A stretch of DNA of 64,000 nt from assembly GCA_009746045.1 (NCBI GenBank), contig RPFO01000744.1, positions 161,001 to 225,000 of the forward strand, in the 5' to 3' direction. Each line of letters begins with the position of its first letter. Position 1 is the stretch's first letter. Source of the DNA: Mesostigma viride (Eukaryota > Streptophyta > Mesostigmatophyceae > Mesostigmatales > Mesostigmataceae). A program made the translations under genes and the position numbers. Below are positions 20,524-59,020 of the stretch, piece after piece. The notes below the pieces were generated by a model. That model was not told the DNA's origin. It did no database searches and saw nothing but the letters and a program-made list of their open reading frames with translations.

Positions 20524-20835
20524 ATGGACCCCGGCCTCACCGACATCAACGCTGGTCAAGAAGAAGCAACTGAAGACGGCGCATTGATGTGCTGCGGTAG
20601 TATTTTTCGCGTAGGCTATGCCGCCCACATTCACAAGGAGGCATTGTACCTAGACTTGACCCTGGCGCAGCAACAACGGCGACGGGAGCTGTGGCCGACC
20701 TACCTCCAGCTCCGGCAGACCAAGGCGGGCCAGCCGGTGTACTGGAAGGGGGCGGCCATCTACGTCGGCCACAAGCCCTGGCACGCGACCCCCGCGACCA
20801 CCGCGGCCCCAGCGACTCCAGCCGCCCCAGCTTAG
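20524..20835 (+). pseudogene. Retroelement ORF1 C-terminal fragment (family A)
   Basis: From about 20657 the frame matches the minus-strand ORF1 at 57170-57862: LTLAQQQRRRELWPTYLQL, GQPVYWKGAAIYVG and HKPWHATP, ending in an Ala/Pro tail and TAG. The pattern (basic RRK, LT..QQQ.RR.LWP.Y) resembles the C-terminal domain of L1-type ORF1 RNA-binding proteins. The part before 20657 is unrelated flanking sequence, so this is a 5'-truncated copy. Confidence 0.75.
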
Positions 20836-21297
20836 GGGAATACAGCAGCAGTAGTGTAGAATAGTTAGACCGTGGCCTTGTACATGCCCGCCTGAGTCCT
20901 ACAGGCACTATTACAGCTGATGCCTAGCATTTTTAGTCATGTACATGTGTGCTTATGATGTGCCACACTCCAGATGATGCCTTGCTTTATTTCATTATGC
21001 CGTGCCCATGCAGGGAGTAACTCTCTGCTGAGACGCCATGCCCTAGCTTTTGCATAGCTATGCTGATCTTCCCCCGGCCCCATGACAGGCTCCCCCTTAG
21101 CTGGGCATAGCTTGATAGATCATGGGGCTGCAAGTGCCCTGGTGCACCTAGAGCAAGGGTCGTTTACATTCCCACGGCCCTTGCAGGAAGTAGCTTAGAA
21201 TGTATTACCTGTAGCTCATATGCCCCTTCTCTGGGCTATGTGCTACATACACTCCCAACGGAGTTATGTTCCTAATTAATTAATTAATTAATTGTAC
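20657..21297 (+). mobile_element. ORF1-only retroelement, family A, 3' portion
   Basis: ORF1 end, then about 410 bp of 3' UTR, then the terminal hairpin CTCC-CAAC-GGAG at 21252-21263, TTATGTTCC, and a (TAAT)n tail to about 21297. The 3' UTR matches minus-oriented copies at 57052-57170 and 53545-54060. No reverse transcriptase is attached in any copy seen here. Confidence 0.75.
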
Positions 21298-21318
21298 CTA
21301 GGCCTGCCACTTACTTAC

Positions 21319-21820
21319 TTCGGACGAGATTAGACAGCGTAGGATAGCATTTGTAGGACACCTTGCTCGCACCAGCCAGGTCGACACCGCCCTTGGTCTG
21401 GCAGGCCCCCAGCGGCTTGGCCAGCCAGCCAGGGCGGCACATTCTGACCTGGCCTGGCCCCAAGGGCATTCCCACAAGGGTAGGGAAACATGTCACGAAC
21501 TACACCCAGATGTTGCTGGATGACCTATCGGTCCCAGCCCAGTTTGAATACCGCATCCACTCTCTCTCCCTTCTTTGGACTGCCATATTGCAGAACAAGA
21601 CGCGGTGGCAGAAGATTGTCAAGGCTCACACGCCCGACCCTGTGGGCAAGCCACCTCCCCCCAAGAGGCGGAGGCGTTTTGATGGGTAGGGCAGTTGGGA
21701 TTTTTCTAGACTAGATAGATTAGCGTTAGGATAGTCAGATTACGCGGCTCTCTCCACCACCACCCATCAAGGAATATGTGCTACATGATCTCCCAACGGA
21801 GGCATGTTATAATTAAACTT
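21319..21820 (+). mobile_element. 5'-truncated reverse transcriptase element fragment
   Basis: Matches the 3' end of the RT element at 28137-28628: DEIRQRRIAFVGHLARTSQ, then a frameshift, then the AHTPDPVGKPPPPKRRRR tail, 3' UTR, hairpin CTCCCAACGGAG (21790-21801) and ATGTTATAATTAA. It sits just beyond the tail of the preceding family A copy. Confidence 0.85.
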
Positions 21821-24224: not shown

Positions 24225-24480
24225 CCTCCGTAGCATAATCAAGTGCTCAGAATTACAGCTAGTGGGGCACTTAGCTTGTACCAACCAGTTAGACGTTTCA
24301 CGTGGCCCAGCTGCGGGGTTCATGAGGCCCGCGCAGCCAGGCAGGCACCTTCTCACGTGGGATGGGCCAAGCAATGCTCGACGCCATTCGGCCCGCACGT
24401 TCAAGGAGCAACTCGTAGAGGATCGACATGACTCACATGAGGGGCTTAGGCCCCTCCGTGATATGGAATAAAAAGATGCA
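24225..24480 (+). mobile_element. Diverged reverse transcriptase C-terminal remnant
   Basis: The frame 24262-24471 reads MGHLACTNQLD, GQPGRHLLTW-like (AQPGRHLLTWDGP) and a short tail. This aligns with VGHLARTSQVD and GQPGRHILTWPGP of the RT at 26802-28499 but is clearly diverged, so it comes from a related family. Confidence 0.65.
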
Positions 24481-24579
24481 AGACAAGGCCATATGGGTAT
24501 AGTTTGCAAACGCGGGAAGCATGCTAGACTAGACAGGACCCCTAGGGTAGAGAGCTTAGATATAATAAATAAAGTTGGC

Positions 24580-25183
24580 TCGATGAATATGAATGGTGAT
24601 GGAAATGTGTAGCCGGCTTCAGTGTTCACTGAAATTATGGCTGGCTTACGTGAAGAGCGATCGACTCGATGCCGCCGGACTCGATGACCTAGACGGTGGG
24701 ACCGGAAACAGCTTGCTTGATCAGGGCGTGCGTTTCGAGCCTAACTGGCCGGGAGTGTCTAGTGGTGAGCACCATTGCTGCGATCGCTCTCCCACCATTT
24801 ACGAGGAAATACCTGCAAATGGAAAACCACTGAAAAGGTCTAGCTAGTCAGTCATTACGTTAGCCATGCCATGATTCCAAACGTCCAAGAACTGTACACG
24901 GTGCACACGGTGCAAAAATCCGGAGGACATCACTTTCAAATTTATGTGCGGCGGGAACCAAAAGCCCGTGTATGCCAGAAAACATCGTGTTGCTGCAGCG
25001 ACGCGACGATGCGGACAAGGAATGCAGTGCCAAGCTCGGAACGGCCGCAAAGGAGATCTGGCATCACAGGGTTCAGATGTGCGGAGATACTACGCGATCC
25101 AGCCATCCACAACCTGTTTGTAGAGGTTGTGCCAAGGGGCAGCACCGAACAGATGTGGGTGACGTTGCAAAAATTAATTAATT
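24580..25183 (-). mobile_element. 5'-truncated Penelope-like copy
   Basis: Reverse complement of the 3' end of the element at 48535-53540. It includes the last ~35 codons of the ORF (HLFGAAPWHKLY region, 25090-25180) and most of the 3' UTR. It is cut at the family B tail (AATTAATTAA) at 25184. Confidence 0.85.
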
Positions 25184-26332
25184 AATTAAACTCGTGCTCC
25201 CGTTGGGGAGTCACGGAGCACCGAAGTGCTTTTAATCCCTGAGTGTGCACAACAGGAGAAAGGGCAGAGACCCCCAGTCTCCTTCATGCCTAAGGCATGC
25301 CACAGCTGCATTCGGGCGCGCTAGCTAAACGGACACGCTAACGATCCGGCAATCTGTGGGTGCAATAAGACCAATGTGAGCATGGCATAACAGTTAGCGT
25401 GGGCGAGTAATCTGATCATAGCCAGGACGTAGCATGGCTGTACAAGGACTAAGCTAGGGCTATGGCTGGTTTTGTACCGTGCGTTAGCGGTGCACGTGAC
25501 TAGGTATGGTGGCACAGCGCTAGGCAAACATTCTAAGCATGGCTGCCATGGCGGCAGTGACTACCAATGAAGTCAAGCTAGGGCTACAAGCTATTCTAGC
25601 CCGCTGGGGGCGTCCACAGCTTGTGGTTGATCATCAGGTCCCGGCCCCTCCAGTACACCTTGGGCTTGAATCTGGGGGTCCTGCTTGTGGCGGAGGTATT
25701 CAGGCCACATGTCGCGTCGCTGCTGCTGCTGAGCGGGGGTCAGGTCGTCGTCCAGCGTCCAGGTGAGGTCGTGCAACCGCTTGCGACGAGAGAGGAACCG
25801 CTGCTTGTCCTCACGGGATGGGAAGGTGAGCAGGACTGGTGGGGGAGCCGCCTTGTCCCGTGAGTGGGGAAGGCGGTGACACCCACGCAGTTCTACCTCA
25901 CCTACCAGGCCCATGAGGGTAAGGAGCTGGTCCAGCTTGAGCTCGTCGGCAAGGGAGGTTGACGTCTCACCTGGCTTCTGGGGGAAACGACGCAGAACCA
26001 CTCGGCACTCGCGGCGAGCGCGGTCGGTGGCCTCCCGTTGGTTGGCCTGGCAGTTGTCCTCCAGCTCCTGGAGCTTCGTGGCGATGGCGTCGGTGGTTGA
26101 GGCGTCGCTGACCGCAGCAGGTCCGCATAGGAGAGGGGCGGGAGGTCGCCAGCATCCAGCCGGGGTGGCTGGGATGCGATCGTTGGCCGTCTGCTCCGCT
26201 ATCTTTGGGACCTGTGAGGCCAGGGCCTCGGTGTGGGCGGTGATGGCTTCAAGCTTCTTCATGGGCACGCCGCACTTGCCCTCCACCTGGTTAAGGCGAG
26301 AGACAAGTGCAGCGTGCGTCTCAGATGTTTAA
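25184..26332 (-). mobile_element. ORF1-only retroelement, family B
   Basis: Minus orientation. It ends in the hairpin CTCCCC-AAC-GGGAG (25197-25210), then CACGAG and a TTTAATTAATT tail. The body contains an ORF1-like frame (26286-25591) and about 400 bp of 3' UTR. A decayed plus-strand relative lies at 54240-56345 and 3' fragments at 41600-41890 and 47090-47245. Upstream it is fused directly to an RT fragment at 26340, so its true 5' end is missing. Confidence 0.7.
25591..26286 (-). CDS. ORF1-like RNA-binding protein of family B retroelement (231 aa)
   Basis: A coiled-coil-prone N-terminal third (MEGKCGVPMKKLEAITAHTE, LQELEDNCQANQREATDRAR) is followed by RRECRVVLRRFPQKPGE, then LRGCHRLPHSRDKAAPPP, LLTFPSREDKQRFLSRRK and LDDDLTPAQQQQRRDMWP. 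Coiled coil, RRM-like core and basic C-terminal domain is the layout of L1-type ORF1 proteins (family knowledge), which bind element RNA. The start is uncertain because upstream sequence is replaced by an RT fragment. Its homologue at 55131-55860 (+) carries frameshifts. Confidence 0.6.
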   Translation of the reverse strand: MEGKCGVPMKKLEAITAHTEALASQVPKIAEQTANDRIPATPAGCWRPPAPLLCGPAAVSDASTTDAIATKLQELEDNCQANQREATDRARRECRVVLRRFPQKPGETSTSLADELKLDQLLTLMGLVGEVELRGCHRLPHSRDKAAPPPVLLTFPSREDKQRFLSRRKRLHDLTWTLDDDLTPAQQQQRRDMWPEYLRHKQDPQIQAQGVLEGPGPDDQPQAVDAPSGLE

Positions 26333-26339
26333 GATCGAT

Positions 26340-26772: not shown

Positions 26773-28628
26773 GGTGGGAGGGGATCAACCAAGTCCCCGC
26801 CTTGAAGGAGGGCTGCCTTGCCACCAACGACGTCGTCCACCCCTTCACTTTGGAGGAATTGGACGGCGCCCTTGCTCGCCTGCGGTACGATGCGGCGGTC
26901 GGGGCCGACCACCTTTCTGCTGAGCTGCTGAAGACCCCTGATCTGGCGGTTAGGGATCTTCTGCTGGCGTTCTGCAACCGTGTCCTGCTCTCTGACGAGC
27001 CTCCGCCTGCTGAGTGGCAGACGGCCATCCGCGTCATGCTGTACAAGAAGGGCTCTGCTGCTGACCCCGGTAACTACCGGGGTGTCTGCCTCCAGAGCGC
27101 CGCGCTGAAGGTCTTCATGCGCATGATGCTGCACAGGCTCCGCGCCGCGCTGGACCCACACCTGGGTGAGTCTCAGATGGGTTTCCGTAGTGGTCGTAAC
27201 ACTGTCATGGCTGTGTTTGTCGCGCGCCGGTTGATGGAGGAGGTGCGTCGCCTTCCCCCTGACAGTTTGCCGCTGGTCCTCATTTTTGTTGACTATATCA
27301 AGGCCTTTGACACGGTCCTCTGGGAGGCTCTTTGGGCCATCCTAGCTCTGGACCGCGTGCCACCAGCGTTTATTGCTGCCATTCGCCGACTGTATGAGGG
27401 CTCACAGGCAGTAGTGCGGACTGCGGAAGGCACCACCCCACCATTCCCCCTTCACCACGGGGTGTGGCAAGGTTGTGTCCTGTCTCCATACCTGTTCATT
27501 ATTGTCGTGGACCACGTCATGCGCCAGGCACGTGCGCGCTTTACTGCTCTTAAGGGGTTCGAGCCAGGCTTGGACATCCTTAACGAGCGTGGGCACGGCG
27601 GGGTTAGCACGGGTTACCGCCTGGCTGACCTGATTTACGCGGACGACACCACCCTCATCGCGCGCCCCGAGCACATTCAGACCTGGCTGGACTGTCTGGG
27701 CCTGGAGGCGAGGGCGGTGGGGTTGGAGATTAGTGTCAAAACTGAGGCGATGGTGATTGGGGCCTCCAGTCGCCCACCGCTGCCGCGCCTGCTAGACGGG
27801 ACGGAGGTCCCACTCCGCGACCGCTTCAAGCTGTTGGGGAGTTGGCTTCCGGACACTGCCGACGATGTGGACACCCGCATCGGCCTTTCCTGGGCCAAGC
27901 TCCGTTCGCTCAACACCTACTGGCGCTCCAAGGGCCTGGACGAGCACCGCAAGCGCATGCTCTTCAAGGTCCTCGTCCTCACGGTGCTCACGTATGGCGC
28001 CGAGGCATGGACACTCACGGCAACACTGGCAGCCAAGCTAGACGGCACGGTAACCCGGATGCTCCGACAGGTCCTGAATGTCGGGTTTTCTCAGCGTAGG
28101 TCCTTAGAGTCTTTGTATCACGGTATGCCGCGTATTTCGGACGAGATTAGACAGCGTAGGATAGCATTTGTAGGACATCTTGCTCGCACCAGCCAGGTCG
28201 ACACCGCCCTTGGTCTGGCCGGTTCCCAGCGGCTCGGCCAACCGGGGCGGCACATTTTGACCTGGCCTGGCCCCAAGAACATTCCTAAAAAGGTAGGGAA
28301 ACATGCCATGACCTATACCCAGATGTTGCTGGACGACCTAGTGGTCCCAGCCCAGTTTGAGTACCGCATCCACTCTCTCTCCCGTCTTTGGACTGCCATG
28401 CAGGACAAGGAGCGGTGGAAGAAGATTGTCAAGGCACACACGCCCGACCCTGTGGGCAAGCCACCTCCCCCCAAGCGGAGGAGGCGTTTTGATGAGTAGT
28501 GTAGTTAGGCTTTTCTAGATAGAGTTAGGATAGTTCGATCACGCGGCTTCCTCCACCCCATCCATCATGAAATATGTGCTACATGACCTCCCCACGGAGG
28601 CATGTTATAATTTAATTTAATTTTTTTA
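26772..28628 (+). mobile_element. Non-LTR retrotransposon, 5'-truncated, with RT ORF
   Basis: Open frame from the inverted junction at about 26772 to TAG at 28499, then 3' UTR, hairpin CCTCC-CCAC-GGAGG (28587-28600, stem changes compensated relative to other copies) and an ATAATTTAATTTAATTTTTTT tail (split: ATAATTTAATTTAA then TTTTTTT). No endonuclease domain remains at the 5' side. The 3' end abuts a Penelope remnant. Confidence 0.85.
26802..28499 (+). CDS. Non-LTR reverse transcriptase (565 aa, 5'-truncated element)
   Basis: RT motifs in order: VMLYKKGSAADPGNYRGV (motif 1-2 region), ESQMGFRSGRNT, LIFVDYIKAFDTV (motif A with D), HHGVWQGCVLSPYLF (motif B), LIYADDTTLIA (catalytic YADD) and VLTYGAEAWTLTATL. 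The C-terminal part RMLRQVLNV, IRQRRIAFVGHLARTSQ and PPPPKRRRRFDE is typical of this LINE group. The frame continues upstream of the ATG (INQVPALKEG), so 26802 is just the first Met. The protein is uninterrupted over 565 codons, so the insertion is fairly recent. The missing N-terminal endonuclease means this copy cannot be autonomous. Confidence 0.9.
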   Translation: MKEGCLATNDVVHPFTLEELDGALARLRYDAAVGADHLSAELLKTPDLAVRDLLLAFCNRVLLSDEPPPAEWQTAIRVMLYKKGSAADPGNYRGVCLQSAALKVFMRMMLHRLRAALDPHLGESQMGFRSGRNTVMAVFVARRLMEEVRRLPPDSLPLVLIFVDYIKAFDTVLWEALWAILALDRVPPAFIAAIRRLYEGSQAVVRTAEGTTPPFPLHHGVWQGCVLSPYLFIIVVDHVMRQARARFTALKGFEPGLDILNERGHGGVSTGYRLADLIYADDTTLIARPEHIQTWLDCLGLEARAVGLEISVKTEAMVIGASSRPPLPRLLDGTEVPLRDRFKLLGSWLPDTADDVDTRIGLSWAKLRSLNTYWRSKGLDEHRKRMLFKVLVLTVLTYGAEAWTLTATLAAKLDGTVTRMLRQVLNVGFSQRRSLESLYHGMPRISDEIRQRRIAFVGHLARTSQVDTALGLAGSQRLGQPGRHILTWPGPKNIPKKVGKHAMTYTQMLLDDLVVPAQFEYRIHSLSRLWTAMQDKERWKKIVKAHTPDPVGKPPPPKRRRRFDE

Positions 28629-29188
28629 ACCAGCGCAGGCCAGAAATCGGGAGAATCCGGACCATGGTAGCTCGAGCCTGCCGTTATCTTTTCCGCGTTT
28701 TCGAGTCGTTCAGGATGATGAAGATGAATGGTGATGGAAATGTGTATCCTTGTGCATTGAAATTATGGCTGGCTTACGTGTGGAGCGACTAGATGACCTA
28801 GACGGTGGGGCCGGAAACAGCATGCTTGATCAGGGCGTGTGTTTCTAGCCTAACTGGCCGGGAGTGTCTAGTGGTGAGCACCATTGCTGCGATCGCTCTC
28901 CCACCATTTACGAGGAAATACCCGCAAATGGAAAACCACTGAAAAGGTCTAGCTAGTCAGTCATCACGTTAGCCATGCCATGATTCCAAACGTCCAAGAA
29001 CTGCACACGGTGCAAAGGCAAAAAGCCGGAGGACAGCACTTTCAAATGTGCGGCGGGAACCAAAAGCCCGCGGATGCCAGAAAACATCGTGTTGCGGCAG
29101 CGACGCGACGATGTGGACAACGAATCCAGTGCCAAGCTCGGAACGGCCGCAAAGGAGATCTGGCATCACAGGGTTCAGATGTGCGGCC
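28629..29188 (-). mobile_element. Penelope-like 3' UTR copy, truncated
   Basis: Reverse complement of the 3' UTR of the element at 48535-53540, from CCAGCGCAGGCCAG (28631) to CAGGGTTCAGATGTGCGG (29187). It stops at the ORF end. The RT element tail directly precedes it. Confidence 0.9.
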
Positions 29189-41569: not shown

Positions 41570-41890
41570 GGTAGGTAATTAATTAATATTTTTTAAGATT
41601 AGACTCGCGCTCCCGTTGGGGAGTCACGGAGCCCGAACTGCCTTTCATCCCTTTGTTTGCACAACAGGAAGGAAGGTCAGAGACCCCCTTTCTCCTTCAT
41701 GCTAGAGGCATGCCACAGCTGCGTGACTCCCAAACGGGAGCACGAGTCTAATTAATTAATTAATTAATTAATTAATGCCACAGCTGTGCACAATCGGACA
41801 CGCTAAACGATCCTGCAAGATCTGTGGGTGCAATGAGACCCATGTGAGCTTATCATAACAAGGAGCGTGGGCAAGTAATGTGAGCATAGC
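41570..41890 (-). mobile_element. Family B retroelement 3' fragment with nested minimal insertion
   Basis: Minus-oriented tail (ATTAATTAATATTTTTTAAG), hairpin at 41610-41623, then 3' UTR matching 25213-25450. It is interrupted at 41722-41774 by a 53-bp plus-oriented insertion. Confidence 0.8.
41722..41774 (+). mobile_element. 53-bp retroelement insertion consisting of 3' hairpin plus tail
   Basis: CGTGACTCCCAAACGGGAG, then CACGAGTC and a (TAAT)n tail. Perfect 12-bp target duplications, ATGCCACAGCTG, lie at 41710-41721 and 41775-41786. Uninterrupted family B copies confirm the empty site. It is the extreme 3' end of family B and nothing else. Confidence 0.9.
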
Positions 41891-47089: not shown

Positions 47090-47245
47090 ATCGTGCTCCC
47101 GTCGTGGAGTCACGGAGCACCGAAGTGCTTTCAATCCCTGAGTACGTACATTGGCACAACGGGTAGGGGGGCAGAAATTCCCCCCTTCCGTCATGCCACA
47201 GTACAGGCATGCCACAGGGTGCTCAATCGGACCCGTCTAAACGAT
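47090..47245 (-). mobile_element. Family B retroelement 3' fragment
   Basis: CGTGCTCCCGTCGTGGAG, then TCACGGAGCACCGAAGTGC and GGCATGCCACAGGGTGC match 25195-25340. It ends at GTCTAAACGAT, where the family A tail begins. Confidence 0.8.
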
Positions 47246-48508
47246 TGCATTGCATTGCATTGCATTGCATTGCATTGCATTGCATTGCATTGCATTGCAT
47301 TGCATTGCATTGCATTGCATTGCATTGCATTGCATTGCATTGCATTGCATTGCATTGCATTGCATTGCATTGCATTGCATTGCATTGCATTGCATTGCAT
47401 TGCATTGCATTGCATTGCATTGCATTGCATTGCATTGCATTGCATGGCATTGCATGGCATTGCATGGCATTGCATTGCATTGCATTGCATTGCATTGCAT
47501 TGCATTGCATTGCATTGCATTGCATTGCATTGCATTGCATTGCATTGCATTGCATTGCATTGCATTGCATTGCATTGCATTGCATTGCATTGCATTGCAT
47601 TGCATTGCATTGCATTGCATTGCATTGCATTGCATTGCATTGCATTGCATTGCATTGCATTGCATTGCATTGCATTGCATTGCATTGCATTGCATTGCAT
47701 TGCATTGCATTGCATTGCATTGCATTGCATTGCATTGCATTGCATTGCATTGCATTGCATTGCATTGCATTGCATTGCATTGCATTGCATTGCATTGCAT
47801 TGCATTGCATTGCATTGCATTGCATTGCATTGCATTGCATTGCATTGCATTGCATTGCATTGCATTGCATTGCATTGCATTGCATTGCATTGCATTGCAT
47901 TGCATTGCATTGCATTGCATTGCATTGCATTGCATTGCATTGCATTGCATTGCATTGCATTGCATTGCATTGCATTGCATTGCATTGCATTGCATTGCAT
48001 TGCATTGCATTGCATTGCATTGCATTGCATTGCATTGCATTGCATTGCATTGCATTGCATTGCATTGCATTGCATTGCATTGCATTGCATTGCATTGCAT
48101 TGCATTGCATTGCATTGCATTGCATTGCATTGCATTGCATTGCATTGCATTGCATTGCATTGCATTGCATTGCATTGCATTGCATTGCATTGCATTGCAT
48201 TGCATTGCATTGCATTGCATTGCATTGCATTGCATTAAATTGAATTGAATTGAATTGAATTGAATTGAATTGAATTGAATTGAATTGAATTGAATTGAAT
48301 TGAATTGAATTGAATTGCATTGCATTGCATTGCATTAAATTGAATTGAATTGAATTGAATTGAATTGAATTGAATTGAATTGAATTGAATTGAATTGAAT
48401 TGAATTGAATTGAATTGAATTGAATTGAATTGAATTGAATTGAATTGAATTGAATTGAATTGAATTGAATTGAATTGAATTGAATTGAATTGAATTGGAT
48501 TGGATTGG
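47246..48508. repeat. Pentanucleotide array (TGCAT)n and (TGAAT)n, tail of a family A element
   Basis: About 198 TGCAT units (47246-48236) with only three TGCATGGCAT interruptions near 47450, then TGAAT units with one block of four TGCAT (48316-48335), then three TGGAT units. It joins directly to GGAACACAT and the family A hairpin (CTCCGTTGGGAG, 48516-48527, minus). Copies elsewhere have short tails at this position, so this is an expanded retroelement tail. The 330-435-codon open frames are artefacts. Confidence 0.9.
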
Positions 48509-48534
48509 AACACATCTCCGTTGGGAGCACATGT

Positions 48535-48983
48535 GGTCCCGCCGCACATTTGAAAGTGCTGTCCTCCGGCTTTTTGCCTTTGCACCGTGTGCAGTTCTTG
48601 GACGTTTGGAATCATGGCATGGCTAACGTGATGACTGACTATAGCTAGACCTTTTCAGTGGTTTTCCATTTGCGGGTATTTCTTCCTCGTAAATGGTGGG
48701 AGAGCGATCGCAGCAATGGTGCTCACCACTAGACACTCCCGGCCAGTTAGGCTCGAAACACACGCCCTGATCAAGCATATGCTGTTTCCGGCCCCACCGT
48801 CTAGGTCATCTAGTCGCTCCACACGTAAGCCAGCCATAATTTCAATGCACAAGGATACACATTTCCATCACCATTCATCTTCATCATCCTGAACGACTCG
48901 AAAACGCGGAAAAGATAACGGCAGGCTCGAGCTACCATGGTCCGGATTCTCCCGATTTCTGGCCTGCGCTGGTTGTCTCTTTG
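48535..48983 (+). repeat. 5' pseudo-LTR of the Penelope-like element
   Basis: Nearly identical to 53093-53540. The clearest difference is GACTATAGCTAGACC here against GACTAGCTAGACC. It represents the element's 3' UTR placed upstream. Confidence 0.92.
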
Positions 48984-49922
48984 ATATTAGATTGGTTGAA
49001 TATAGTTCGTTTTCGGCTAGGAGGCGTGGCCTTTGCATGACGGGCAAGAGGATTTCAGCCGTGGGCAACCAAGCACACATGTCGTCGGGCTAGTCCGACG
49101 AGTGCGCACGTGAACCGGCACTCCCGGTCACACACGACACCATAGAGATAGTCAGCTGCACCGCCTCATGTCGGCGAAACCCATAGTTCCATCGGAATCG
49201 TTTCAGCGGCCGGCATTTCCTCTCCGCGTTTCCTCAACCTCGTTTTCAGGATCATACTCATCGTTCCTGCATTTTCCTCTTCCACGCAGGTTGTGGCTTT
49301 TTTGAAAGCCACGAATGTACCCGGGGATGGGACGCTTCGGCTGCCTCAATGCCTACACATTCAATACGATGTCCCCCTCTCACCTTCCTCCATCATTCCG
49401 CTCACATTGCACTACGTGTCTGTGTTTTGTTCTTTTTCTTGTTCTCGTTTGTTTTGCTGTTCTTGTCCTTTTTCTTTTACTTTTACTGAGGGAGCTAGGC
49501 TGGGCTGCGCGCTGTGTGTGCTACTCTCGTGTTTTTCTGTGGGCACTTGAGAGACTAACCAAGGATCGGGCCCCCCACACGGCAATATCAGCCTTTGCTT
49601 TTGTTTACCCTCCCATATCTCTTTACAAACGCCAAAAAAACACAAAGGCAGGAGCACGGTGACTCATCTGGAACATGAAGAAGGGAAATCTTTTCGTTAC
49701 AGGAAAGAGGTGTCAAGTATGACAATTGGAAGGCCCCCCCACTGGGAATCCACATGTTCCGAGTCCATTCAGCTGTGTTGTTAGCCACATCCTGCCCCGG
49801 GGAGATGCATCATGGACCACCGCTATCGCGTAACGGGTGTTACGCAGTGAATATTGACTTACCTCAATATGCTCCGCTCTGGTTCTGTTTGATGTCTTAG
49901 CTCTCAGTGCATCTGAATCATC

Positions 49923-52900
49923 ATGAAACACCTTATGACTTTCTGGCATGCTCTTACCCTCCACAGAATACGGCAATCCAGTGGCATTGATTACCGGAAG
50001 TACACTGCTATTTCTCGGCAGTTCCCCTATCGTATCTCCTCACAGGCATGGCGGAAGCGTTGTCGCATCAACACGCGCCATAACCATCACTGCAAGGATG
50101 ACCATACTCTACGTCGCCTCCGGCGCTTACAGCGCACGCATTTGTCGCTTACCAACTCCACTCGCCCACACCCCGTAAGCACCCATCGCGTCATTTATGC
50201 CATTTACAACCGCAGGTACCCTCAGCGTATCTACGTTGGCCAGACGCAACGGGATGCCTGGACGCGTTTTCAGGAACATGTCCGAGCGGCACGCCGCCTT
50301 CATATTGGCCGCCCTGCCGCCAACGACGACACCCCCCTACATGGCGCCATGGCCCAATACGGGTGGTGGGATTGGCGAGTCGTCCCCTTGGAACATGTCC
50401 CCGGCACCTTTACCGGCGCCGCTTTTCGCAAAGCCGCAGGGCATCGGGAAACGTTTTGGAAACGAATGTTACATGCATTTCTGCCCCACGGTTTTTGCAT
50501 TGAAGGCAAGAGTTTCAAAGCTCGGTCTCGCCGCCGCCCGCCTCCCCTCCGTCCCCGCCCTCTTATGTTCATCCGTGCCTGGCGTCTGAAGCACAATCTC
50601 CACCCATATCGCCCCTATCCCCCCAGCGTCACCCCGGCCCCTCCACCTTCCACACATGTGTCCACCGATCCTTCCCTTTACTCCACCAGTCTCCGCTGCT
50701 TACGTCACATGTCTCGGCTTATGCAACGCGGCAACTTTCATGCATCCTATCTCGAAGCCTGCAGCTTGAAGAAGCTTACCAGCTTACACATTGCCGTCGG
50801 GTCGTGCTCCCCAGCTGATCTGCAAGTCCCCCGCTCCCATGCCACTAGTCTGCGAGGCCTTCTCTCACGTATCATTCGGCACCGTGTCAATGGGAATGCA
50901 GATGCACTGCGTCCGCGCCGTTTGCTGATCTCACCTTTCATTCATGCTGCGATGGATGAGCTGTGTTTGCCACACATTCTGCATTTGCCGCAAGTGCAGG
51001 CTGCGATGCCGCTCGTGGTGCGCAACACTTTCGGCACTCCCATTGCCGCCTGGCATTACTCTCCCACCTTGGGACAAATGGTTTTCAGCAACGGGAAGGT
51101 CAGCCGCGATACAACGCCCACCGAGCTGGCCACCATCTTGGCAGGGCCCTGCCCCTGCCAACAACAACGGTATTTCAAGTACCTTGATCCCACCTCACAG
51201 CACGTCATGACCGCTGACCTCAGCATCCTGCCGAGCCACACGCTTGTAGACCTTTTTGCCAAAGGCACCAAGTTTCGGCCGTGGGTCCAGCGCACGTGTG
51301 CCAAAGAGGTGAATGCACTGCTCTCCACATCACTGCGCAAATTCTGCAATGCCATGAGCACGGACCTACAGCTTGCTCCCCTTGCCATGGAACCGTGGTT
51401 TCGCGCCGTCATTCACGAATGCAATGCACGTCTCACCAGGCTTGATTACCGTCTCCAGCAGGTCCACCGCACCACCTGGCTCAACACCACAGATAAAGCA
51501 CTTCTTGACCACTTCAAGCAGGACTTTATCATCACGTGTGTTGACAAGAGTGCCAACAACTTTGCTTTCATATGCAAGAAGCACTACCTTGCTACTTTGC
51601 AACACGAGTTGGCGTCCAGCCCTACCTATGTTCAGCGTGCACAGTCCACCGCCAGTATCACTGCTGCTCATCGGGCTTTTCTGCACAGCCAAAACATTTT
51701 TGCTCGGGCATTCCTTAAGCGGCAGCGACGCGCCACCACCACTACGTTCCCATATCTGTATCTCACTCTTAAGCTGCACAAAACTCCTGTTGCTTTGCGC
51801 ACCATTGCTGCGTCGCATTCAGCCCCACTGATGCCTCTCTCGAAACTCATCTGCCATGCTTTGAATGCTCTTCTCCCCGAAGCCAATGCATTATGGGTGG
51901 AGGTGCTGTCGAATGCCGGGTATGAATGCGCTGGTAGTTGGATCGTCATAGACTCAGCCCAAGTACGCCTACGCCTTGCCGCCCTTAGCCGTTCTAAGAC
52001 AGCAGCAGAGAAACGTATACCTATGCCCATAGCCACCTATGATTTCACCACTCTATATACCACACTAGATTTGCACGATTTGAAAGCTCGTTTAGATAGC
52101 CTCCTTACTCGTCTGTATGCACGTAGGCCTCACGGGCGCAACCACCTGCACGTGCGTGTTTCTCAGACCAAGCCCACGGCAACGTGGCTCTCAGGGATCG
52201 CGGCAGGTGCTATCGTGCGGGATGGTTATAATTATATTATCACGAAGGCTGACCTTGTCCATTGGATCTCTTATCTTGTTGATAACACCTTCATCTGTTT
52301 TGCGGGCAATGTATACCAACAAGCTATCGGCATCCCTATGGGCACTAACTGTGCCGGGCTCCTTGCAAACCTCTATCTATACACTTATGAGCTTGCATTC
52401 ATGGAGAATCTCATTGCCTCAAACGATGATGTTCTCATCAGGCGTTTTATCCATACATGTCGATACATTGATGATGTCATCGCTTTCGACAACCCTGATT
52501 TCGCAACCCATTTGTATATCACCGCTGGTCTGCCTGGCATCTACCCGCAAGCGTCCCTCACATTAAAGCTCACGTCGGAGGATACTCATTGCAATTACCT
52601 CGATCTTAACATTACCCATAACAAGAAGGGCTGGCGTACGGCTGTCTATGATAAGCGCAAGGATCCTAAATACCAGCAAATTCCTTTTATTCGTTACCCC
52701 GATATTCACAGTCTCCTTTCCCACACAGCAAAATATGGTGTTGTTCTTTCTCAGTTACATCGTTTTTCCCGTCTTTGTTCTTATCGTGTTGATTTCATCA
52801 CGACTCTTGTTGAACTCTTGCAGCGTTTATTGGTCAAAGACTATGACCGAGCCATTATGCTCCGTCAAGTCCGATGTTTTTTGCAACGTCACCCACATCT

Positions 52901-52979
52901 GTTCGGTGCTGCCCCTTGGCACAAGCTCTACAAACAGGTCGTGGACCGGCTGGATCGCATAGTATCTCCGCACATCTGA
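49923..52979 (+). CDS. Penelope-like protein: N-terminal GIY-YIG endonuclease and C-terminal reverse transcriptase (1018 aa, intact)
   Basis: Residues ~90-165 form a GIY-YIG nuclease: VIYAIYNRRYPQRIYVGQT (91-109), then the conserved Arg/His helix TRFQEHVRAARR and WRVVPLEHV. A CxC motif (GPCPCQQQRYFKYLD, CPC at 410-412) links to the RT. RT hallmarks: TCVDKSANNFAFICKKHY (DKG-like), TYDFTTLYTTLDL (motif A Asp, ~706), GIPMGTNCAGLLANLYLY (motif B, ~802), CRYIDDVIAFDN (catalytic YIDD, ~846) and YLDLNITHNKKGWRT. N-terminal endonuclease order is the reverse of canonical Penelope and defines Naiad/Chlamys. I see no clear CCHH zinc motif around the nuclease, as reported for Chlamys. No frameshift or stop interrupts 1018 codons. 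The start is the first Met, but translation may begin nearer the nuclease. Confidence 0.93.
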   Translation: MKHLMTFWHALTLHRIRQSSGIDYRKYTAISRQFPYRISSQAWRKRCRINTRHNHHCKDDHTLRRLRRLQRTHLSLTNSTRPHPVSTHRVIYAIYNRRYPQRIYVGQTQRDAWTRFQEHVRAARRLHIGRPAANDDTPLHGAMAQYGWWDWRVVPLEHVPGTFTGAAFRKAAGHRETFWKRMLHAFLPHGFCIEGKSFKARSRRRPPPLRPRPLMFIRAWRLKHNLHPYRPYPPSVTPAPPPSTHVSTDPSLYSTSLRCLRHMSRLMQRGNFHASYLEACSLKKLTSLHIAVGSCSPADLQVPRSHATSLRGLLSRIIRHRVNGNADALRPRRLLISPFIHAAMDELCLPHILHLPQVQAAMPLVVRNTFGTPIAAWHYSPTLGQMVFSNGKVSRDTTPTELATILAGPCPCQQQRYFKYLDPTSQHVMTADLSILPSHTLVDLFAKGTKFRPWVQRTCAKEVNALLSTSLRKFCNAMSTDLQLAPLAMEPWFRAVIHECNARLTRLDYRLQQVHRTTWLNTTDKALLDHFKQDFIITCVDKSANNFAFICKKHYLATLQHELASSPTYVQRAQSTASITAAHRAFLHSQNIFARAFLKRQRRATTTTFPYLYLTLKLHKTPVALRTIAASHSAPLMPLSKLICHALNALLPEANALWVEVLSNAGYECAGSWIVIDSAQVRLRLAALSRSKTAAEKRIPMPIATYDFTTLYTTLDLHDLKARLDSLLTRLYARRPHGRNHLHVRVSQTKPTATWLSGIAAGAIVRDGYNYIITKADLVHWISYLVDNTFICFAGNVYQQAIGIPMGTNCAGLLANLYLYTYELAFMENLIASNDDVLIRRFIHTCRYIDDVIAFDNPDFATHLYITAGLPGIYPQASLTLKLTSEDTHCNYLDLNITHNKKGWRTAVYDKRKDPKYQQIPFIRYPDIHSLLSHTAKYGVVLSQLHRFSRLCSYRVDFITTLVELLQRLLVKDYDRAIMLRQVRCFLQRHPHLFGAAPWHKLYKQVVDRLDRIVSPHI

Positions 52980-53092
52980 ACCCTGTGATGCCAGATCTCC
53001 TTTGCGGCCGTTCCGAGCTTGGCACTGGATTCGTTGTCCACATCGTCGCGTCGCTGCCGCAACACGATGTTTTCTGGCATCCGCGGGCTTTT

Positions 53093-53540
53093 GGTTCCCG
53101 CCGCACATTTGAAAGTGCTGTCCTCCGGCTTTTTGCCTTTGCACCGTGTGCAGTTCTTGGACGTTTGGAATCATGGCATGGCTAACGTGATGACTGACTA
53201 GCTAGACCTTTTCAGTGGTTTTCCATTTGCGGGTATTTCTTCCTCGTAAATGGTGGGAGAGCGATCGCAGCAATGGTGCTCACCACTAGACACTCCCGGC
53301 CAGTTAGGCTCGAAACACACGCCCTGATCAAGCATATGCTGTTTCCGGCCCCACCGTCTAGGTCATCTAGTCGCTCCACACGTAAGCCAGCCATAATTTC
53401 AATGCACAAGGATACACATTTCCATCACCATTCATCTTCATCATCCTGAACGACTCGAAAACGCGGAAAAGATAACGGCAGGCTCGAGCTACCATGGTCC
53501 GGATTCTCCCGATTTCTGGCCTGCGCTGGTTGTCTCTTTG
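53093..53540 (+). repeat. 3' pseudo-LTR / 3' UTR of the Penelope-like element
   Basis: This segment is shared with the remnants at 12099, 24580, 28629, 48535 and 59095. It ends CTGGTTGTCTCTTTG just before the ATGT target duplication. Confidence 0.92.
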
Positions 53541-54070
53541 ATGTAGCACATATACCTGAGAAGGGGCTATGGATTTTAATACATTCTGGGCTACTTCCTG
53601 CAAGGGTAGGGTGTAAAATACATCTGCTCTGGGTGCACAAAGGGCACCTGCACCACTATGTATTCCAGCAGCTAAGGTGCGGGCATAGGGTGGAAGATCA
53701 TCATGGCTAAACAATGGCTAGAGCATGGCGTCTCACGATGGACGATTGTCCAGGCTCCGGCACGCCAGCCCCTGTGGGCAAGCCCCCCCCCCCACCACCC
53801 CTTCAAGAGGAAGGGGCGCTTTGCTGAGTAGAGTAGTTAGGGTTTTCTAGATTAGATTAGCTTAGAGTTAGACTAGTTGGGTAATTCGTGGCTTCGCCCA
53901 CCTCCATCCATCCAGCAAGGGAATATGTGCTACATGATCTCCCAACAGAGTCATGTTATAATTTAATTTAATTTTTTTAATGGCGTCTCAGCAGAGAGTA
54001 GCTCTCTGCATAGGCAATGCTAAGCTAAATTCTTAATGCATCATCCGTGGGGAGTCCCATCATAGGCGCA
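53541..54070 (-). mobile_element. Family A retroelement body (minus), interrupted twice
   Basis: Continues the family A 3' UTR beyond the Penelope insertion: GTAGCACATA, GAGAAGGGGC, ACTTCCTGCAAGGG and ATGGCGTCTCAGCAGAGAG are reverse complements of 20990-21250. It is split at 53736-53979 by an RT-element fragment. With 47246-48530 this makes a single minus-oriented element carrying two later insertions. Confidence 0.75.
53736..53979 (+). mobile_element. 244-bp 5'-truncated RT-element insertion with 11-bp target duplication
   Basis: Contains the last codons (PVGKPPPP-like), 3' UTR, a degraded hairpin (CTCCCAACAGAG) and an AATTTAATTTAATTTTTTT tail (split: AATTTAATTTAA, TTTTTTT). ATGGCGTCTCA flanks it at 53725-53735 and 53980-53990. 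Confidence 0.9.
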
Positions 54071-54239
54071 CATGCGCGTAGGCGTGGGCCATGCACGTCA
54101 CTAAGCGAAGCCTGACTAGTCTACACTACTGCTATATTTTCCCTAACTATACACTTCATGTATATTCCCGCAGCCTTAGCCTCGTCTTTCTCTTGCTTTC
54201 TTGCAACCTTGCGTTAGGTATAGTTAGGCTGACGAAAAT

Positions 54240-56345
54240 GGCTGACGGCGGTATGGCTGACGGCGGAGCTCACTCAGATCTTTTGCGTCTGAGCCCCAAG
54301 TTCAGTCAGATCACTTGCATTCGATGCGCCTTTTTAGGACGCACTCGCCAGTATAATCGGTTACGGCTGAAACGCAGTATCGAAAAAGTTATGCACGTGA
54401 CAAGCAGCTATGACGACTCCAAATGCAAAACGGCGTTTGGAAAAGGAGCTTTCCGGCTCGCAGTCCAACCCTGTCGGGCACTCGCGATCGCCCTTGCCCA
54501 GCCGTCTGGGCCCGCAAACAGTCGCCAGCAAACCCATCGCCAAGCGCCTCGCCCGAGCCCAAGAAACCCTGCCACGAACACAAAATGGCGAAAGTACCTA
54601 CCAGACTACGAACACTTTTCTTTCAGCAACTGGCTGCAACTGACCAAGGAAGAATGCGCCAAAATAGTCCAGTTCTTAGCACACGGGAACGCAAGCTCCT
54701 TGGGCCCGTTGGGCCCATCAGTCCCCCCCGATGACCTGGAGGGGATCCTCTCCAGGCCAGAGCTCAACCACTGCATCGCTATCAGGACTGTGCAGCTTCT
54801 TCCAGCAAACTGTTATGGGCATCGTCGCTAAGCTCCGCATGCAACCCAGCCCGGCCTGCGCAGCCGGCGCAGCCACATCGGCTCCCTCCCTCTGCAACTG
54901 AGGATAACATCCGAGCAGTGCTGGAGGAGCACGTGACTGCCTGGCCGCTGGCCGAGAAGATGACATTGATGTCAGACCACGGCGCTCAACACGGTGGAGG
55001 CCAAGGTCTCCAACACGGAAACCAAGGCCGGTCGCCCACAAGCTCAACCTTGAGCAGCCATTAATTGGTGATCACGGCGCAGGCCTCTGATGCACATGCC
55101 GCCCTGATCTCTCCCGCCTCAACCAGGTGCATGGAGGGCAAGTGCGGCGTGGTCATGAAGAAGCTTGAAGCCATCACCGCCCACACCGAGGCCTTGGCCA
55201 TACAGGTCCCAAGGATAACGGAGCAGACGGCCACCATCGCATCCCATGCAGCTAGCCACCCCGGCAGGCTGCTGGCGACCTCCCGCCGCTTTCCTATGCG
55301 GACCTGCTGCGGTCAGCGACCGCCTCAACCACAGACGCCATCGCCAGGAGACTCCAGGAGCTGGAGGACCACCGCCAGGCCGCACATGCAACGGGAGGCC
55401 ACCGACCGCGCTCGCCGCGAATGCCGAGTGCTCAGTGCTGCGTCCGGCTTCCCCCAGAAGCCATGCAGGTGAGACGTCAACCACCCTTGCCGACGAGCTC
55501 AATTAAGGACCGCTCGATCAGCTTAATTCCCTCATGGGCTTGGTAGGTGAGCTAGGTAGAACTGCGCGGATGCCACCTCCTTCCCCACTCGATCACGGGA
55601 CAACTAGCTAGGCGGCTCCCCCACCAGTCCTGCTCACCTATGCCTCCCCTAGTGAGGACAAGCAGCGGTTCCTCTCTCATCCCAAGAGGCTGCACGACCT
55701 CACCTGGACGCTGGACGACGACCTGAACCCCGCTCAGCATGCAGCACCAGCAGCGACGCGACCTGTGGGCTGTGGCCTGAATACCTCCGCCACAAGCAGG
55801 ACCCCCAGAAGCCCAAGGTGTCAGTACTGGCAGTACTGGCATTAGGTCCAGGGGCGGGGACCTGATGATCAACCACAAGATGTGGACGTATACGCCCCCA
55901 GCGGGCTAGACTAGCTAGCCCTAGCTTGAATCACGGGTAGTCACTGCCGCCATGGCAGCCATGGCCCTAGAATGTTTGCCTAGCCGTGCCACCATACCTA
56001 TAGTCACGTGCACCGCTCAAGCACGGTACACAACCAGCCATAGCCCTAGCTTAGCCCTTGTACAGCCATGCTAAGTCCTCAGGCTAGTAGCTATGATCAT
56101 CTGGATTACTTGCCCACGCTCCTTCTTGTTAATTATGATATGCACACATCATGGGTCTTATTACATATCCAAAGAACTCAGTTGCCGGATCGTCTATCGT
56201 GTCCGATTGCTGCTGTGGCATGCCTCTGGCAGCATGAAGGAGAATGGGGGTATCTGCCCTTTCTTCCTGTCATGTGCACCTACAGGGATTAAAAGCACTC
56301 CGGTGCTCCATGACTCCCCAACGGGGGCACGAGATAAAATAAAGG
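54240..56345 (+). mobile_element. Degenerate family B ORF1 element
   Basis: The ORF1-like region is split across frames. 55131-55860 corresponds to the minus-strand ORF1 at 25591-26286 (MEGKCGVVMKKLEAITAHTE, REATDRARRECRV, DDDLNPAQ-like). The 3' UTR follows, with the inverted match of 25370-25570. It ends in CTCCCCAACGGGGG (56314-56327), CACGAG and an ATAAAATAAA tail. A 246-codon frame (54091-54831) covers its possible N-terminal part. Confidence 0.6.
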
Positions 56346-56371
56346 ACCTCATTCTGAACCCCGCCCCCTAA

Positions 56372-57051
56372 TTGACCGAATCCACCTTCCTCCTCCACCA
56401 CCACGACGCCATCTCACAGCTAGCACGTGACGCCCCTCGCCGAGTGGCTGCGGATGTGGCAGCTGTGGGCCGCACGCTGGCTGCTGAGCTCCCCCGGCGC
56501 CATTTCCACCGCCACCTCGATCCACCCTCCTCAGTCGCCTCCAACCCCCCCCCCCCCTTCCGCCTCCACCGACGCCATCACCGCCCAGCTCCGCGACATG
56601 GACAAGCGCCTCCAGGACAACGCCATCGCCACCGAATGCCTGCAAAACACCGCAGGCCTCGCCGCCTATGTAGGCGGTGAAGGACATTGCCGCCAAGCCA
56701 GCCCCGCTGGCCCGGCTGGCAATGCCCCACCCCACCCAGACCTGGGCGGACATGCTGAAGCAACACACCACCTCCACCACCTCCATGCACCACCTCCACC
56801 ATGCACCTAGCTCCGCCGTCGCAGCACAGCTCCAGCAGCAGACGCTCAACCTCCGCGAGGAGGCCGAGCTCGCCAAGCGCAGCCTTAACCTCATTGTCAA
56901 GAACTTCGACGTGGGGGAAGGTGAGAATTCCGTGACGCTTCAACAGGCGTTTGAGCGAGAAATCCTTGGTCGCATGGGCCTTCTTGGTGAGATCAAGCTG
57001 GTCGCCCACCGCCTTCACCCGCTCGGGCAGGGTACAAGGCAGGGGCGCCCC
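56372..57051 (+). pseudogene. Family A-like ORF1 fragment (plus), head of an inverted pair
   Basis: Begins MTESTFLLHHHDAISQ, continues with VAADVAAVGRTLAAELP (shifted frame) and then LREEAELAKRSLNLIVKNFD, NSVTLQQAFEREILGR, LLGEIKLVAHRLHPLGQG. The same segments in the same order occur on the minus strand at 58093-57480. It is frameshifted and cut before the RNA-binding C-terminus. Confidence 0.65.
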
Positions 57052-58700
57052 CGTAGGCACACATGTACATGACTAAAAATGCTAGGCCTCAGCTGGTATA
57101 GTGTTGGTAGTAGGCGGGCATGTACAAGGCCACGGTCTAACTATTCTACACTACTGCTGCTGTATTCCCCTAGGCTGGGGCGTCTGGAGTCGCTGGGGCC
57201 GCGGTGGCCGAGGGGGTCGCGTGCCAGGGCTTGTGGCCGACGTAGATGGCCGCCCCCTTCCAGTACACCGGCTGACCCGCCTTGGTCTGCCGGAGCTGGA
57301 GGTAGGTCGGCCATAGCTCCCGTCGCCGTTGTTGCTGCGCCAGGGTCAAGCCGCGTCGTCCACGGTGAAGGGAGCACTTGTGCTCGAGCCGCTTGCGGCG
57401 TCTGAGAAACGAAATTATCTTGTCCGATCGGCTCTCAAAGATGAGAAGAAGCGGGGGCGCCCCTGCCTTACCCCGCGCGCGGGGAAGGCGATGGGCGGCC
57501 AGCTTAATCTCACCAAGAAGGCTCATGCGTGCAAGGATTTTGCTCTCAAACGCACGTGCAAGCTTCTCGGAATTCTCACCTTCCTCCATGTCGAAGTTCA
57601 TGAGTATATATGGCGTTGAGGCTGCGCTTGGCGAGCTCGGCCTCCTCGCGGAGGTCAAGCATCTGCCGCTGGAGCTGGGCTGCGACGGCGGAGGTGGTGG
57701 AGGTGGTGTGTTGCTTAAGCATGTCCGCCCAGGTCGTGATGGGAGGATCGAGCATCGCCGGCCAGGCCAGCAGGGGCTGGCTTGGCGGCAATGATGTCCT
57801 TCACGGCTGCCTGGGCGGTGAGGCCTGCGGTGTTCTGCAGGACCTCGATATAGCGATGGCATTGTCCTTAATTAAAGACGCTGGTCGATGTCGTGCAGCT
57901 GGGCGGTGATGGAGTCGGTGGAGGCGGAGGGGGGGGAGGGGGTGGAGGTGAGGAGGGTGGCGGTGGCGGTGGGGATGGTGGGGAGCTCAGCAGCCAGCGT
58001 GTGACCCACAGCTGCCACATCTGCAGCTAGGGGCGTCACGTGCTGTGAGATGGCTTCTTGGCTCAGGTGGAGGAGGAAGGTGGATTCGGTCAAGGGGGAG
58101 GGGGCCCAAAGGTCCGCAGCAGAGCGCTGAAGGATGGAAAAGAGGGCGGCGAGCTGAAGGCGGGGGCGGGACCAGTTGGTCAGGTGCTCAGGTCGGTGAG
58201 AAAACCGGCCGTCAGGTCCAGTTCGGAGGCGATTAAGGCTTTGAAGGCGCGGTCACAGGTCGAAAATGGATCGAGGCGTGCGACCCATAAAACACGAGCT
58301 CCAGTATCCTGACTGATGGGTGGCATGTTGAAATAGCTGGGTCTGGCGTCGTCAAAGGTGGAAAATAACCCGTCGACGTCAAAGTCGCGCTCAGACCAGC
58401 TCGGTTCGGTTGGGCGGCTGCGTTTGGGCTCAGGCGAGGCTGAAGGCGAGGCATGAAGCCCGGGAGGTTGCTGGGCGACCACCAGTGCGCGACTAGTGTC
58501 ACCGCTGCCTGCCGGGCTTGAGGGCGAAGCTGCAGCCGGAGCTGCAGACTATTTTCATTGCCGAGCGCAGCCGCCAGGCTGCGTTGCGTCGAGGGGCGTT
58601 TGCTCGTCATATATTGCGTAATAGCTTCGGAAAATTATATCAGCATGTGCGTCTTAGAAAGACGTTCGAAGCGATTGTGATATTCACGGCTAAATTCGGT
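57052..58700 (-). mobile_element. Family A ORF1 element (minus), frameshifted, 3'-truncated
   Basis: Minus strand from about 58610. An N-terminal part reads KRSRPTEPSWSERDFDVDG, then MTESTFLLHLSQEAISQ, LREEAELAKRSLN, and the RNA-binding region RLPRARGKAGAPPLLLIFE, FLRRRKRLEHKCS, LTLAQQQRRRELWPTYLQ and HKPWHATP with an Ala/Pro tail. The longest intact frame is 57862-57170. The 3' UTR ends at 57052, where it meets the plus-strand copy. Confidence 0.7.
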
Positions 58701-58769
58701 GCTCAGACGTGAAAGTTGTGAGCTCCGCCGTCAGCCATGGCTACCTCGTGGCTCGTGGCTCGTGGCTCG

Positions 58770-59020
58770 TCTCTCAGGGATATGTGCTATGTATATACTC
58801 CCAACGGAGTTATGTTCCAATTCAATTCAATTCAATTCAATTCAATTCAATTCAATTCAATTCAATTCAATTCAATTCAATTCAATTCAATTCAATTCAA
58901 TTCAATTCAATTCAATTCAATTCAATTCAATTCAATTCAATTCAATTCAATTCAATTCAATTCAATTCAATTCAATTCAATTCAATTCAATTCAATTCAA
59001 TTCAATTCAATTCAATTCAA
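58770..59020 (+). mobile_element. Family A extreme 3' end with (AATTC)n tail
   Basis: ATATGTGCTATGTATATA, hairpin CTCCCAACGGAG (58798-58809), TTATGTTCC, then about 40 perfect AATTC units (58818-59019). A second example of a pentanucleotide tail starting exactly at the conserved 3' end. Confidence 0.88.

Follow-up and report, generated by a model that had tools for sequence, protein, structure and literature searches.

The subject of this analysis is a 64,000-nucleotide stretch of the Mesostigma viride genome (positions 161,001 to 225,000 of contig RPFO01000744.1; hereafter the window), in which retroelements of unlike kinds end in a common 3' hairpin, in most cases followed by a short AT-rich repeat tail. 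In particular, the hairpin closes both long interspersed elements (LINEs) that encode an endonuclease and a reverse transcriptase (RT) and several ORF1-only families, that is, elements whose sampled copies carry a first open reading frame (ORF) and no RT. We consider it likely that the hairpin and tail form the 3' recognition and start signal for RTs of stringent-type LINEs, and that the ORF1-only families are copied in trans; the hairpin is probably the handle gripped by the copying enzyme. In the mechanism we propose, hairpin and tail would be the start site for target-primed reverse transcription by stringent-type Mesostigma LINE RTs, with endonuclease and RT supplied by two-ORF LINEs, namely RT1 and its relative RT2 for one hairpin type (type I) and RT3 for the other (type II). 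ORF1-only families A and B, which have an L1-like ORF1 protein and no RT, would carry the same module of approximately 30 nt and be copied in trans. The module is also portable: a B subfamily took over a 3' end from family A, type I hairpin included, and this chimera then multiplied.

Aligned at the loop, the 11 copies of the hairpin in the window have five lower positions, a one-base bulge, five upper positions, a four-base CAAC-type loop and matching arms, which gives 9-10 pairs. The loop is exactly CAAC in 8/11 of these copies and GTGCT stands just upstream in 7/11; the repeat unit of the tail is TAAT, AATTC or AATTT, with no clear tail on the copies at 47109 and 56314. RT elements carry a type I hairpin of the form ACATG-A-TCTCC/GGAG[G,T]-CATGT, with GGAGG in the window RT copies. 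The type I hairpin of family A reads ACATA-C-ACTCC/GGAGT-TATGT in the window and overall has mostly ACATA or ACATC with TATGT or GATGT. The type II hairpin of family B is CCGTG-A-CTCCC/GGGAG-CACGA, and because its outermost position is a non-standard pair in 20/20 copies it has nine pairs. The first-pass annotation, made from the sequence alone, had proposed that unlike elements, several ORF1-only families among them, share such a hairpin and a short repeat tail, and this proposal stands. All ten of the hairpins it named are present in the window, although the last begins at 53939 rather than 53945 and lacks a pair in its upper stem, an eleventh at 47109 (minus strand) had been omitted, and the structure, correctly described as having a CAAC-type loop, is longer than was noted.

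For the wider survey the sample comprised 230 kb of fetched sequence together with the window; nearly all of the fetched part was picked around type I hairpin matches, so that family shares within it do not amount to a genome census. A pattern search returned 87 matches, of which 84 were kept; three (numbers 41, 51 and 79) were excluded as unrelated by sequence and position, ahead of the loop, target-site duplication and boundary counts. The window copy at 53939, overlooked by the pattern, was added manually, which gave 85 rows (53 distinct) for the covariation test. Across these rows 91.3% of cells pair, compared to at most 55.4% when slid, the covariation score is 0.438 compared to 0.210 in shuffles, and 77 cells are double-changed; the paired fraction, the score and the number of double-changed cells were each reached by 0/500 shuffles. 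For the 11 window copies alone the corresponding paired fraction is 90.9% and the score 0.500, again reached by 0/500 shuffles. Covariation across copies, on which the first-pass proposal depended, is thus present.

The hairpin is also abundant. A covariance model built from the window copies gave 96 matches at E up to 1 in 264 kb, and exact matches were counted genome-wide and judged against reversed-sequence controls: CTCCCAACGGAG occurs 13,688 times (control, 21) and CTCCCCAACGGGAG 8,576 times (control, 15). Within the window the former occurs four times and the latter twice, whereas 50 shuffles gave averages of 0.04 and 0. Because the exact counts lie far above those of the reversed controls, a chance origin of the motif was rejected. 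The window itself (part of a 440-Mb assembly of 2243 contigs) is crowded with nested retroelements, as follows.

20655..21293, plus strand: family A ORF1-only element, 5'-truncated, with the C-terminal part of ORF1, 3' untranslated region (UTR), type I hairpin 21245-21269 and (TAAT)n tail.
21316..21820, plus strand: RT1-type LINE 3' end (end of the RT ORF, 3' UTR) with type I hairpin 21783-21807.
25182..26303, minus strand: family B ORF1-only element with ORF1 25591-26286, 3' UTR, type II hairpin 25192-25216 and (TAAT)n tail.
26788..28618, plus strand: RT1 LINE, 5'-truncated, with RT ORF 26802-28499 (P0002, PF00078), 3' UTR, type I hairpin 28581-28605 and (AATTT)n tail.
41605..41722, minus strand: 3' end of a family B element, closed by type II hairpin 41605-41629.
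41721..41776, plus strand: hairpin of type II, its loop AAAC, followed by a (TAAT)n tail; the inverted neighbour of the 41605..41722 copy.
47091..47217, minus strand: 3' end of a family B element; type II hairpin 47091-47115 is short of one upper pair and has no clear tail.
47244..48534, minus strand: type I-like hairpin 48510-48534, then an expanded 5-bp repeat tail of approximately 1.26 kb.
53741..53980, plus strand: RT2-like LINE 3' end with type I hairpin 53932-53956 (one upper pair lost) and (AATTT)n tail.
55110..56342, plus strand: family B ORF1-only element, ORF1 decayed, with type II hairpin 56308-56332, no clear tail.
56359..57053, plus strand: family A ORF1 element, upstream part.
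57054..58103, minus strand: family A ORF1 element in the opposite orientation to its neighbour, with ORF 57170-57862 (230 aa); the 800 nt that adjoin the ORF1 end hold no hairpin.
58791..59020, plus strand: 3' end of a family A element with type I hairpin 58791-58815, then 203 bp of (AATTC)n tail.

The position of the hairpin at the insertion end is marked by target-site duplications (TSDs). A TSD of at least 8 bp adjoins the tail at the homology-inferred 5' boundary in 14/80 copies, compared to 0.5 expected when tails were exchanged among copies (80 of the 84 copies were testable); seven of these 14 copies are RT elements, five belong to family A and two to family B, and a TSD of this length is absent in the other 66. 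TSDs next to the tail fit target-primed reverse transcription beginning at the hairpin end. At L017:7434 (plus strand) the insertion consists of the 25-nt hairpin and tail only, with a 12-bp TSD, and lies within an RT3-like 3' end. (Note that a first TSD scan, made without the boundary constraint, was weak, with 18/84 compared to 9 in the null at a minimum of 10 bp, and was replaced by the boundary-matched test.)

The first-pass annotation had listed some of the hairpin carriers simply as RT elements. Those examined here are two-ORF LINEs, each with a divergent ORF1 of its own, and a search for an endonuclease-RT element with the hairpin found it on both RT1 and RT3. RT1 and RT2 LINEs end in a type I hairpin and an (AATTT)n tail, with the RT C-terminus approximately 85-150 nt upstream in the cleaner copies of the sample. 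In RT1, Exo_endo_phos and RVT_1 domains (PF03372, PF00078) lie in two overlapping frames ahead of the hairpin. All 77 RT1 copies scored, out of 27,906 candidates, are 99-100% identical, the 5' start is common to three longer copies within approximately 13 nt, and the one copy translated has an ORF1, of which 383 codons lie within the piece. RT2 (L016) is approximately 79% identical to RT1 and is known from truncated copies only, which are without the endonuclease part. RT3 has a single intact frame (1182 aa at its longest) that encodes Exo_endo_phos (PF03372) and RVT_1 (PF00078), then a type II hairpin and a (TAAT)n tail (L018, L052-L054). The 133 RT3 copies scored, out of 19,498 candidates, are all 97-100% identical; the sequence upstream is common to 15/16 sampled copies, and one copy followed further upstream has a 467-codon open ORF1 frame, the 5' end of RT3 lying beyond reach. 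A split LINE, made up of RT-only and ORF1-only halves, was rejected because the upstream pieces of RT1 and RT3 each hold their own ORF1.

Several further observations concern these LINEs. At L011:6630-8486 and L011:4936-6780 (both minus strand) the RT1 endonuclease and RT are in different frames that overlap by approximately 150 nt near a C-rich run, and among the 77 copies the commonest RT1 RT open frame is 615 aa. In L016 and L036 a single frame crosses the C-rich run, and L036 has another frame change further upstream; slippage or frameshifting is a possible reason for the RT1 frame change. L011 also holds a 5'-truncated RT1 copy nested in a family A element, for which inspection by eye gives a duplication of 7 bp (ATTCTTG). 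Three of the matches to the window RT ORF P0002 are M. viride gene models at 89-97% identity, and two of its 14 protein matches are named "Craniofacial development protein 2", a name that we take to denote the BovB/RTE type. A protein search with RT3 ORF2 found 16 relatives, the best of them 28% identical over 98% of the query, one of the 16 carrying a source-given name.

In the sample, the ORF1 of family A ends approximately 400-590 nt upstream of the hairpin in most copies, which have type I variants and a (TAAT)n or (AATTC)n tail. The ORF1 of family B (ORF1-B) ends 370-400 nt upstream of a type II hairpin with a (TAAT)n tail, and many hairpins have no ORF match nearby, as expected of 5'-truncated copies. 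ORF1-B was scored in 117 of 18,362 candidates; all are 94-100% identical and 115/117 are without an internal stop. The downstream 1 kb of 11 of these 117 copies, picked by subfamily, holds a hairpin approximately 370-470 nt past the ORF1 stop in 10/11, which leaves no room for an ORF2; five of the hairpins are type I and five type II, and the piece for the remaining copy holds none. Similarly, 18 of 33 ORF1 C-terminal ends (window, L001-L020 and L022) are followed by a hairpin no more than 800 nt away, without intervening RT sequence. The copies are scattered and often nested in one another, as sampled within C1 (14.3 Mb) and other contigs. ORF1-B frames are commonly 455-464 codons long, so that the elements were rejected as short interspersed elements (SINEs). 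A 2046-aa open frame at C1468:2972171 was likewise rejected as an ORF1-ORF2 fusion; it is a low-complexity array ahead of ORF1-B.

A model of the ORF1 protein from P0017 and its relatives has a coiled coil, an RRM and a C-terminal domain (CTD), with a mean pLDDT of 67.8 and a pTM of 0.35, and higher confidence across the last 130 residues. Its seven PDB matches at E < 0.001 are all human L1 ORF1p, the best RRM match having a TM of 0.74 by target, so the protein is predicted to be L1 ORF1p-like. RT1 ORF1 and RT3 ORF1 are each approximately 29% identical to ORF1-B over the BLASTP-aligned part (E of approximately 1e-7) and match each other more closely (E 4e-19). In an unrooted tree of ten ORF1 sequences, the RT1 and RT3 ORF1s stand apart (support 100/99) from A, B, a Prorocentrum lima sequence and four metagenomic proteins; note that RT3 ORF1 is a long branch and that the tree gives separation, neither direction nor the second group as a clade. 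In an RRM-only tree the RT1/RT3 split has a support of 98 and, apart from the A pair, the remaining forks are poorly supported. At approximately 29% identity ORF1-B is not a recent deletion product of RT1 or RT3, and the ORF1-only families appear not to derive from either LINE. The P. lima (dinoflagellate) protein, P0019, is 57% identical to ORF1-B over approximately 280 residues, and could reflect contamination, transfer or an old common lineage; a scan of viral contigs with the ORF1 alignment gave 146 pattern stretches, none of them confirmed. A tentative scenario, which we regard as possible though doubtful, is that the ORF1-only retrotransposons are an old separate lineage of L1-type ORF1 proteins, with relatives in the dinoflagellate set and in metagenomes, that might have survived without an RT by capturing the 3' hairpin modules of active LINEs and changing RT provider by template switching, with ORF1 unchanged.

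The extent of the common module was assessed with 38 of the 84 copies, chosen by family (13 RT1/2, 13 A, 6 B and 6 RT3, most of the RT3 copies being assigned via the 3' UTR). Between B and RT3 (six copies each), identity is 0.13-0.32 at 40 to 5 nt upstream of the hairpin, then 0.8 over the five bases preceding it, 0.97 in the left arm, 1.0 in the loop, 0.95 in the right arm and 0.74 across the ten bases with which the tail begins. Identity is thus confined to the hairpin and its flanks, which makes the common unit approximately 30 nt plus the tail. The ORF1-B family carries either hairpin type although its proteins are 94-100% identical. In L041, which belongs to the B subfamily with a 457-codon frame, the first 169 nt of the 3' UTR are as in two copies with 455 and 464 codons (89-92%), and the next 343 nt, including the type I hairpin, are 94.8% identical to a family A 3' end (L010); four other type I B copies have the same terminal hairpin as L041. 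One ORF1-only kind has therefore exchanged its hairpin for another's version, and the simplest reading of the alignments is that the 3' end (approximately 340 nt) of the type I B subfamily was replaced by the family A version, via template switching or recombination, and was then amplified.

Several results weigh against reading the hairpin as a conserved signal for trans mobilization of ORF1-only elements. Among the 11 window copies, the number of pairs changed on both sides was matched by 86/500 shuffles and the number of further pair types by 459/500; among the 85 copies the number of pairs with two-sided change (6) is not above that in shuffles (236/500), and kinship among copies inflates the other covariation counts. 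Thermodynamic support is modest: folding z-scores run from -1.2 to -4.4, and 9/12 pieces folded alone give the core hairpin, although in some of them the lower stem is displaced. The 58776-58822 piece and the long L041 piece misfold, although shorter cuts of both give the hairpin, and the decayed 56303 copy does not fold into it. Of the 33 ORF1 C-terminal ends, 12 are without a hairpin within 800 nt, two run out of sequence and one has an RT-like fragment before the hairpin, and an ORF1-A or ORF1-B element with its own ORF2 may exist elsewhere in the genome. Ratios of nonsynonymous to synonymous substitution (dN/dS) are mixed and carry little weight here, with 0.12 in one A pair and 0.61 in one B pair; in the latter the first part of the ORF gives 0.99 and the RRM-CTD part 0.16 (six changes), and A compared to B gives 0.74, near saturation. 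The median over 35 A pairs, which include decayed copies and one locus twice (the L001/L022 overlap), is 0.67.

We infer that an RT binds the hairpin; which RT would serve which family can be read in two ways. In the first, which we hold to be quite possible, RT3 would copy type II ends only and RT1/RT2 type I ends only, each ORF1 subfamily relying on the LINE that has its hairpin. Consistent with this, the type II arms of ORF1-B and RT3 are near-identical and differ from those of type I (only 0.36-0.55 identity in the left arm), either type closes both an RT family and an ORF1-only family, and the B subfamily with a changed hairpin type grew numerous. Such pairing sits less well with the CAAC loop being common to both types (79/84 copies), with the finding that the specificity of zebrafish L2 elements is set by the loop more than by the stem (PMC4176376), and with the commonest family A tail, (TAAT)n, which resembles that of RT3 and not the (AATTT)n of RT1. 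The second, suggested by the first-pass annotation, is that one promiscuous RT reads the CAAC loop and the upper C-G pairs and mobilizes all of the families. The constancy of the loop and of the two loop-proximal C-G pairs (84/84 and 82/84), the interchangeability of 3' modules on the same ORF1, and the precedent for loop-based recognition (PMC4176376) argue for it. However, the RT1 and RT3 lineages are both recent and numerous, so that two enzymes are probably active, and the compensatory stem differences follow element families. The hairpin is indeed common to the families, but with two autonomous lineages and two types a single RT becomes one possibility among others, and a somewhat doubtful one.

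It is improbable that the hairpin is instead a transcription-end or RNA 3'-processing signal. Standing just ahead of the 3' tail it could set the RNA end, but a short repeat tail follows it as in UnaL2, where RT slippage is thought likely (PMC3747384), and the copy consisting of hairpin and tail only has a TSD; an RNA-end signal and RT recognition could coexist. Very improbable is the view that the ORF1-only families are dead internal-deletion remnants of resident LINEs whose common ends are inherited leftovers, for although HAL1 is described as a non-autonomous L1 derivative (PMC5753468) and several window copies are decayed, the ORF1-B copies are near-identical and almost all open throughout, their ORF1 is separated from those of RT1 and RT3 by low identity and by the 100/99 split, and B and RT3 are without detectable common sequence upstream of the module.

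Two other features of the window adjoin these elements. At 47244-48507 a family A copy has a tail expanded to approximately 253 units of 5 bp; several reading frames are open over long distances there but probably do not represent genes. At 49923-52979 (plus strand) lies an intact 1018-aa ORF without a Pfam match, which we take to resemble a Penelope-like RT with an N-terminal GIY-YIG-like motif; pieces of its 3' part recur at 12099-12566, 24582-25173, 28628-29186, 48537-48985 and 59101-59361. This element was rejected as a hairpin carrier, the 3' ends read being without the hairpin. Antisense Penelope-like sequence abuts a type I hairpin at 48510-48985 and at L013:2497 (minus strand), the two being 98% alike over approximately 480-500 nt, and the junction may have arisen as a chimera through template switching.

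The alga M. viride is a streptophyte and has been placed as the earliest-diverging lineage of that group (PMC6947507). Its elements would offer a natural test of which part of a 3' hairpin a LINE RT reads, and of whether an ORF1 protein helps an element without an RT, since they form a matched set: two RT lineages that seem recently active, a single loop shared by two hairpin types, and ORF1 elements that are near-identical yet bear either type. They also place a stringent-type 3' end on protein-coding elements, not on SINEs alone, and record a change of that end. A search of titles and the beginnings of abstracts, with subscription papers mostly outside its reach, found no report of ORF1-only elements with a stringent hairpin common to LINEs, and the available portions of two Mesostigma genome papers (PMC6947507, PMC7027972) do not describe ORF1-only or hairpin families.

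The closest parallel is with stringent LINE/SINE pairs. Two zebrafish L2 LINEs each require the 3' stem-loop cognate to them, and it is mainly the loop that confers specificity (PMC4176376); Ohshima (2013) lists 58 SINEs with 3' ends common to partner LINEs, CR1 and RTE being prominent and the green-algal pairs in the table being those of Chlamydomonas, with RandI or L1 (PMC3747384). Like such pairs (UnaL2 and its SINE, ZfL2-1, ZfL2-2, and plant and green-algal examples; PMC3747384), the Mesostigma elements have a common 3' hairpin with compensatory changes and a short repeat tail, the loop being conserved and the stems variable, and the 3' end of ORF1-B is common to an endonuclease-RT LINE, RT3, of the same genome. 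In contrast to those pairs, the Mesostigma partners are protein-coding ORF1-only elements rather than SINEs, two hairpin types occur on two LINE lineages, and 3' modules have been exchanged between ORF1-only families.

HAL1 elements end in poly(A), whereas the Mesostigma elements end in a hairpin and repeat tail. HAL1, which encodes ORF1p only, resembles the Mesostigma ORF1-only elements in having the L1 ORF1p fold alone and in needing an RT in trans, as the Mesostigma elements presumably do (PMC5753468); it differs in being an L1 derivative, whereas the Mesostigma ORF1 appears not to derive from RT1 or RT3, the two hairpin-bearing LINEs compared. HeT-A of Drosophila (with TART/TAHRE) is likewise a non-LTR element with a Gag/ORF1 protein and no RT, which is presumed to be borrowed from a partner (PMC5537684), but it is telomeric and serves its host, whereas the sampled Mesostigma elements lie scattered, many of them inside one another. 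Each ingredient has a precedent in stringent hairpins, HAL1 or HeT-A; what looks new is their combination here, together with the exchange of a hairpin module among ORF1 elements that are nearly identical.

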